This document shows positions 16,619 to 17,376 of a DNA stretch of 33,359 nucleotides, piece by piece. The stretch lies in the NCBI GenBank assembly GCA_021205205.1, contig JAJPXY010000042.1:1-33359 (forward strand). Direction: 5' to 3'. Both the position numbers and the translations under genes were made by a program. Under the pieces are notes generated by a model. That model was not told the origin of the DNA. It was given only the letters and a program-made list of their open reading frames with translations, and made no database searches. Source of the stretch: Clostridiales bacterium. GTDB lineage: Bacteria > Bacillota > Clostridia > Oscillospirales > Oscillospiraceae. Each line of letters begins with the position of its first letter. The first letter of the stretch is position 1.

Positions 16619-16686
16619 TGTAGGGGCGGCCCGTGGCCGCCCGCATCCAGAAAGCGGTTTTCGGGCGGCCACGGGCCGCCCCTACA
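16619..16686. repeat. Palindromic intergenic repeat, copy C (divergent loop)
   Basis: Perfect 24-bp arms TGTAGGGGCGGCCCGTGGCCGCCC, 20-nt loop unlike the other copies. Confidence 0.95.
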
Positions 16687-16759
16687 GGTATATGGAGATC
16701 ATTCCCGCAAAGGTACAAGGGATTGCCCAAAAGTTTTTAAAATTTATTTCAAAAAGTGC

Positions 16760-16788
16760 TTGACAATTTTCCTCCGCCGTGGTATAGT
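16760..16788 (+). promoter_or_regulatory. Strong sigmaA-type promoter of the ncRNA candidate
   Basis: Consensus TTGACA-17 nt-TATAGT. Confidence 0.85.
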
Positions 16789-16794
16789 AAGTTC

Positions 16795-17073
16795 ATCCAA
16801 AAGAAAGGCCAAAATCAAAACCGAACAACAGCCTTCACCCATTCGTGGAGGTCCGGCAGCTGACCCGTTACCTCAGCCTTCCCCCTATTCTGCATCCGCA
16901 GGACATTCGGATGATGACGATATTGAGATTGGCGTTTCCCCAATGCGTGGACAAGGAGGTCCCGCAGCAAAATTCAGACGAAAGCGAGGGATAAGCGGTA
17001 TGCGTTTAGATTTCAAAATAGAACAGAAGTGACCTGGTCCAGAGGTTGAATGGACCGGGTCACTTCTTTTTTT
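16795..17073 (+). ncRNA. Candidate free-standing structured ncRNA (~280 nt)
   Basis: Near-consensus promoter, no ATG/GTG/TTG in the open frame before 16943, multiple hairpins, strong terminator; next gene is on the opposite strand. Confidence 0.65.
17025..17073 (+). terminator. Intrinsic terminator of the ncRNA candidate
   Basis: AGAAGTGACCTGGTCCA-GAGGTTGAA-TGGACCGGGTCACTTCT followed by a T-run. Confidence 0.9.
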
Positions 17074-17087
17074 GCCCGCAAACGGGG

Positions 17088-17264
17088 TCACACGAACTGG
17101 TTGCGCTCCGGGCTGTATTCGTAGTTGATGAGGGACAGCTTCTGGCGGAGCTGGCCTTCGTCCACGCAGTTGGCCTTGCAGAACTCCGTCAGGGAGCTGT
17201 AGTTGTCCCGCAGCTGGGTGTTGAGATAGCTCAGCAAAATCACCGGATCGTTGGGAATGTTCAT
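17088..17264 (-). CDS. DUF4250 domain-containing small protein
   Basis: MNIPNDPVILLSYLNTQLRDNYSSLTEFCKAN...NYEYSPERNQFV. Confidence 0.8.
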   Translation of the reverse strand: MNIPNDPVILLSYLNTQLRDNYSSLTEFCKANCVDEGQLRQKLSLINYEYSPERNQFV

Positions 17265-17376
17265 GATCATCACCTCCCGCTCATCATAGCACAGCGCGGG
17301 GGAATTGTCGAGGCGCAAATCTGCCGGGAAAAAGCGAAAATCTCCCGCTCACAGACGTCGAAACGCCGTATTATCT

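Follow-up and report, generated by a model that had tools for sequence, protein, structure and literature searches.

Dual-function sRNAs, among them SgrS, RNAIII, SR1 and Spot 42, encode longer peptides than those considered here and regulate known targets, and they resemble the RNA described below in that structure and a small ORF are joined in one molecule. We know of none of these four that has mini-ORF arrays, start-stop stems or a terminator-embedded stop codon as a family hallmark. A second point of comparison is the bacterial minigene, of which phage lambda bar is an example. Two-codon minigenes also occur in mRNA leaders such as axe-txe (PMC8708949). The present family shares with them the succession of Shine-Dalgarno sequence, ATG, one or two codons and stop, and possibly a role in RNA stabilisation or tRNA depletion, but its minigenes belong to free-standing RNAs with no gene downstream and are accompanied by a conserved ten-codon ORF at the terminator. 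Leader peptides and attenuators are similar in having a short ORF that adjoins or overlaps a terminator; the difference is that here there is no downstream cistron and the orientation of the next gene is random. The raiA-motif RNA (ModT) and 6S RNA of Clostridia are likewise stand-alone and 200-300 nt long, but no tested member of the family matches Rfam, and 6S RNA (RF00013) was rejected as an identity for the locus, the own-genome copy being a separate locus at C128:508-700, outside the window.

We analysed a stretch of 33,359 nt from a Clostridiales bacterium (contig JAJPXY010000042.1; hereafter the window) that carries a predicted transcript, one of five own-genome copies of an apparently uncatalogued RNA gene family of gut Clostridia. 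Comparison established a promoter common to paralogues and a 3' module made of a Shine-Dalgarno sequence, a mini-ORF of nine or ten codons encoding a conserved L-D-x-K peptide, and a terminator. On this comparative evidence, the locus is probably a stand-alone RNA gene of dual character, coding as well as structured, belonging to a large family in gut Clostridia.

Organisation of the locus

A preliminary description, made from the letters of the window, proposed a free-standing transcript of ~280 nt, a proposal now supported by whole-length homologues, by a promoter shared with paralogues and by the lack of an Rfam match. The whole RNA is present in five genomes of the same genus at 89-91% identity in a DNA search. 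Its promoter is as first described, with TTGACA at 16760-16765, a 17-nt spacer and TATAGT at 16783-16788, agreeing with the consensus at 11 of 12 positions and having TG before the -10 element. The terminator hairpin could also be retraced (stem 17025-17041 / 17051-17067, T-run up to 17073); a simple terminator scan misses it because its loop exceeds 8 nt, and the loop sequence AGAGGTTGAA is found again in several paralogues. The stretch from promoter to terminator holds ~200 nt without a long gene on the plus strand, and the next gene, said to lie on the opposite strand, indeed encodes a DUF4250 protein (17088-17318, minus strand) and is convergent with the RNA. Further downstream comes a LacI-type regulator, while a NADH:flavin oxidoreductase-type protein is encoded upstream of the RNA. 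The failure to assign the RNA to a known class was borne out when Rfam was searched: against Rfam 15 the window gave weak sub-threshold matches only, far under the cut-off and below every family's gathering score, and 20 family loci gave nothing but nearby tRNAs. A long inverted repeat, GTAGGGGCGGCCCGTGGCCGCCCG...CGGGCGGCCACGGGCCGCCCCTAC, occupies 16619-16689, just before the promoter; a near-identical palindrome lies downstream of the own-genome C50 member (L261), which suggests a REP-like element dispersed through this genome.

Table 1. Features of the RNA gene, in window coordinates.
Feature	Position	Strand	Basis or remark
Promoter AAAAGTGCTTGACA-N17-TATAGT	16752..16788	+	Consensus scan; common to 3 of 4 paralogues in own genome
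Hairpin A, GCTGA/TCAGC	16859-16863 / 16873-16877 (16859..16877)	+	Kept in homologues
C-rich linker CTTCCCCCTATTCTG, hairpin A to hairpin B	16878..16892	+	
Hairpin B, CATCCG/CGGATG	16893-16898 / 16908-16913 (16893..16913)	+	Predicted fold, sequence comparison
Small hairpin GGAC-AAGGAG-GTCC inside second module	16949..16962	+	Sequence comparison
Shine-Dalgarno sequence AAAGCGAGGG of terminal mini-ORF	16981..16990	+	AGTGAGG / AGAGAGG in relatives
Ten-codon ORF MRLDFKIEQK, family hallmark	17000..17032	+	Stop codon within terminator 5' arm
Intrinsic terminator	17025..17073	+	17-bp stem, nine-base loop GAGGTTGAA, T-run

The core of the window RNA consists of GCAGCTG, hairpin A, the C-rich linker and hairpin B, the CATCCG/CGGATG pairing of the latter having been noticed in the preliminary description. 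The last pair of hairpin A is A-U, G-C (L014, L015, L017) or U-G (C29 and C138 types), which, given the few sequences, is modest support. The linker is among the best-conserved core stretches in L014, L015 and L017, and the C29 and C138 types carry a TTCCTTCC version of it. The duplicated GGAGGTCC module is present as first written, at 16838-16860 and 16940-16968, and the duplication is real, but it is no general feature, the second copy being missing in the distant homologues L014, L015 and L017; only the closest relatives share it, and it is not what matters most in this RNA. The hairpin at 16949-16962, inside the second copy, reads GGGC..GCCC in L010, with both sides changed, and its region is missing from the same three distant homologues. 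A CsrA-like reading of its AAGGAG loop was set aside as a passing resemblance, the loop not being conserved.

The terminal ten-codon ORF

When the window RNA was used in a DNA search, it retrieved, besides the five orthologues, many loci matching just the last ~65 bases, and these have in common a Shine-Dalgarno sequence and, behind it, a ten-codon ORF that begins with ATG and whose stop falls within the 5' arm of a strong terminator. The preliminary description, in noting the absence of a start codon between the predicted transcription start and 16943, overlooked a downstream ATG, that at 17000 after AAAGCGAGGG, which opens this conserved ORF. Terminal peptides, each followed by a stop codon, include MRLDFKIEQK (window), MVLDFKSEQK, MKLDFKIAEK, MKMDFKIAKK, MKLDFKTEQK, MVLDFKIAES and MKLQIDSEQK, and the codons for Leu, Asp, Phe and Lys differ synonymously among them; members from beyond the genus typically encode MLDIKSEQK, MMLDTKSEQK or similar peptides. 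An ORF ending in the terminator arm was found at 27 of the 29 family terminators but at just 5 of 316 further terminator-like sites taken from the same sequences, and a covariance-model match of the terminal ORF module reached E=9e-13.

A codon test on 18 distinct terminal ORFs gave a synonymous fraction of 0.27 against 0.12 in column shuffles (p=0.005, relatedness being ignored), and the BLOSUM score was matched by none of 2000 shuffles, which ignore phylogeny; the other frames of these ORFs gave no signal. At family level the synonymous measure alone was not significant (p=0.17) and the BLOSUM score gave p=0.02, again with shuffles that ignore phylogeny. Internal ten-codon ORFs, which lie clear of any terminator, yielded p=0.02 (synonymous) and p=0.001 (BLOSUM) under shuffles of the same kind. 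Taken as computational evidence, these tests indicate selection on the peptide of the ten-codon ORFs, and the family would thereby resemble dual-function sRNAs in having a small ORF under peptide-level selection. The last codons of the terminal ORF double as terminator stem. The length of the ORF is also constant: counting from Leu, the eighth codon is the last sense codon in 163 of 175 modules. In members from beyond the genus, TTA GAT hardly varies at the DNA level, and a pattern that itself fixes TTAGATA supplied 105 of those 175; RNA-level constraint may therefore explain part of the conservation of the terminal module. The earlier preference for a structured RNA over a protein stands as far as the long open frame discussed below is concerned, which is non-coding, but not for the best-conserved part, which is a translated-looking ten-codon ORF. 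A hydrophobic toxin of a type I toxin-antitoxin system was rejected as an identity for the peptides, these being hydrophilic and charged (MLDIKSEQK, MRLDFKIEQK).

Upstream mini-ORFs and the variable middle

Most members have AGAAAGGGTGATACCAATGTACAGGTAA, or a sequence like it, next to the predicted transcription start; it consists of a Shine-Dalgarno sequence followed by two or three codons (MYR, MY, MF, MI, MFR or MRN, then stop). The 9-mers of this 5' element are the commonest in the whole upstream region, and 145 such mini-ORFs were counted in 168 upstream regions, against ~30 in dinucleotide shuffles. The minigene arrangement of Shine-Dalgarno sequence, ATG, one or two codons and stop is therefore seen in most members but not in the window copy, whose own subfamily has no 5' ATG mini-ORF. 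In L066, L260 (own C29) and L003 (own C138), the place of the 5' start codon is taken by AAG (e.g. CCAAAGAACACCTGA), with the usual Shine-Dalgarno spacing and a stop two or three codons on; this may be either decay or an odd start.

The two ends are separated by a middle that is all but absent in L072, L086 and L128 and elsewhere reaches several hundred bases. L128, from a class-level genome (G669:C13), has three tandem MFR minigenes with near-identical spacers, then MTLDIKNEQK and its stop in the terminator, and no structured middle. In members from other families (L123, L124, L127, L129, L132, L133, L263), the middle contains a structured core with CACGRCGGTG and ATATAGAT blocks; the window copy lacks this core, which has no Rfam match in the loci tested.

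Some paralogues, in the own and in related genomes, alternate upstream ten-codon ORFs with ORFs of three to five codons. The own-genome C29 array reads MRLNFKSPIK, MYS, MRVAFQAPIK, MCN and MVLDFKSEQK, every one ending at a stop. A longer array is found in L066 (G011:C10, minus strand), where a predicted transcript of ~1.4 kb, covering ~0.2-1.7 kb of the locus, holds at least nine mini-ORFs: MYSFH, MKLDFKIASK, MNSLA, MKLDFKIAVK, MNSFD, MKLDFKKPGK, MCSLT and MYR, with a final MKLQIDSEQK, all closed by stop codons. Pentapeptides of the form M-x-S-x-x alternate there with MKLDFKxxxK decapeptides, before a long stretch free of mini-ORFs and the terminal module. In the internal ten-codon ORFs the start region pairs with the stop region through a stem TGTGTTAT/ATAACACA; eight variants keep 7-8 pairs, and in two of them, TATGTTAT/ATAACATA and TGCGTTA/TAACGCA, both sides are changed.

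In the paralogues C29 and C138, the 3' arm of hairpin B, GGATG, is the Shine-Dalgarno sequence of an internal ten-codon ORF, after which comes ATGTGTTATG; this ORF is lost in the window copy. The same leader, with CATCC/GGATG as its hairpin B, precedes the first internal ten-codon ORF in members of the C29 and C138 types, so that the window RNA, whose core is this leader without the internal ORF, is a short form made of leader hairpins and the terminal mini-ORF.

Proposed mechanism and alternative explanations

We propose that the stand-alone RNA would be transcribed from its strong promoter and its ten-codon ORFs translated, and that local hairpins would gate this translation, hairpin B over a Shine-Dalgarno sequence, the start-stop stem over an internal ORF and the terminator arm over the terminal stop codon. 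The tiny 5' ORF could hold a ribosome at the 5' end, protecting an abundant RNA and preventing run-through into the structured core; the strong Shine-Dalgarno sequence of a minigene has been reported to stabilise its transcript (as discussed in PMC8708949). The output, acting away from neighbouring genes, would lie either in the conserved decapeptide or in ribosomes occupying the ORF that encodes it. In the window copy, the hairpin leader and the terminal mini-ORF are kept and the internal mini-ORF has decayed. More tentatively, we put forward as one joint claim that the family is a new, autonomous class of trans-acting RNA genes, widespread in gut Clostridia and built of tiny-ORF arrays (two to five and nine to ten codons), with start and stop codons placed in their own hairpins and terminator, in which the passage of the ribosome reads or switches the RNA and decapeptides are made; the conjunction of all these elements is possible, though below an even chance.

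The strongest competitor holds that only the act of translation matters, the mini-ORFs being ribosome-binding devices, whether 5' stabilisers, 3' stops for ribosomes or sinks that absorb ribosomes or tRNAs, and their peptides functionless. The two- and three-codon 5' ORFs, which vary in sequence and keep their length, fit this idea, as do start and stop codons built into stems, and both cis effects and tRNA depletion have been reported for minigenes (as discussed in PMC8708949). The peptide-level selection detected on both terminal and internal ten-codon ORFs speaks against it, and we judge it rather unlikely. The C-rich linker raises another possibility, that of a trans-acting noncoding sRNA in which an exposed CTTCCCCCTATTCTG would bind target mRNAs by pairing at their Shine-Dalgarno regions, the mini-ORF playing a lesser part. 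Lying between two conserved hairpins, the linker is nearly invariant in the window subfamily and has related versions in the C29 and C138 types, but over the whole family CCTTCC/TCCC motifs occur 14 times against 5 in shuffles, no enrichment of note, with 36 against 19 for the reverse complement, and L072, L086 and L128 lack any middle. A family-wide C-rich anti-Shine-Dalgarno seed was thus dropped as unsupported, and the sRNA reading as a whole appears unlikely.

Two further readings fare considerably worse. If the RNA were a transcription attenuator, a ribosome translating the mini-ORF would open the terminator so that the next gene is expressed; this calls for a ribosome-sensitive terminator, and the position of the stop codon in the 5' arm agrees with that. 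The next gene of the window is convergent (DUF4250), and over the family the next gene lies on the same strand in 40 cases and on the opposite strand in 47 (27:25 in an earlier set), with no recurring neighbour and no common downstream gene in the comparison; since orientation is random and no co-oriented downstream gene is consistent, leader peptide and attenuator were rejected, and a cis-acting role of this kind is very improbable for the family. The lowest standing goes to the long SPIRGGPAA frame as a small protein or decayed gene, which the preliminary description had allowed. The frame runs open through the window copy and through parts of its relatives, but although the RNA is ~90% identical, the frame is broken by an in-frame TAG in L011, a frame shift in L012 and a 2-nt deletion in L009, L010, L011 and L013. 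Nor is there a codon signal in the stretch common to the relatives, where the synonymous fraction of this frame is 0.30 against 0.27 in column shuffles (p=0.37) and no frame shows an excess of synonymous or conservative changes (p=0.37, 0.91, 0.59). It is hardly conceivable that this frame is a gene. An alternative mini-ORF in L009, MQMKVRDK..., was discarded as not conserved. The probable reading remains that of a stand-alone RNA, coding and structured.

Distribution of the family

The family is defined by the module of Shine-Dalgarno sequence, mini-ORF and terminator. A census of the own genome by model, promoter-pattern and DNA searches found the five members C24 (the window copy), C29, C50, C90 and C138. 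One exact promoter pattern, AAAARYGCTTGACA-N16-19-TATANT, compared in this one genome, has five matches there (control 0), four of them at C24, C29, C50 and C90 and the fifth before a tRNA-like sequence; because the pattern is common to a tRNA gene, it suggests that the family RNA may be abundant. Two covariance models of the 3' module, both with rough calibration, were applied more widely. The first matched 32 of 32 genomes of the genus at E≤0.1 (weakest near E=0.05) and, at E≤0.001, 26 of 106 genera sampled in the family; the second, at E≤1e-4, matched 26 genera of the order's sample of 148 and 9 of the 158 in the class sample, with a best value of 7e-16. A phylum-wide sample of 250 genomes gave no match except the own genome.

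A DNA pattern matched at least 118 stretches of named genomes, and among the matches listed are uncultured Clostridia, many out of gut samples. In one cultured strain, Vescimonas fastidiosa MM35, a member around NZ_AP023416.1:65,213-65,271 is flanked by a TetR-family gene and spoVAC; the listed record shows no gene in this stretch and leaves the member unannotated. Its 5' ORF reads MT and its 3' ORF MMLDIKSEG, both followed by a stop. The exact pattern had no match in 2.9 million viral contigs and none in phage records, and the one match in plasmid records lies on an 861-kb Vescimonas replicon; a phage or plasmid element was rejected on these grounds. In open-licence PMC text we found no description of such RNAs; MetaRibo-Seq considered ORFs from 5 aa (PMC7324362).

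Many gut Clostridia carry several copies per genome of a gene family that Rfam lacks and that is too short for routine gene callers. RNA structure and translation meet in it at the scale of two to ten codons, for which neither ncRNA searches nor small-protein searches are built, and it offers concrete peptides, start codons and stems for testing. At L097, L107, L079 and L188 two members stand in tandem within ~0.5-0.8 kb, and local duplication of the whole unit therefore occurs.
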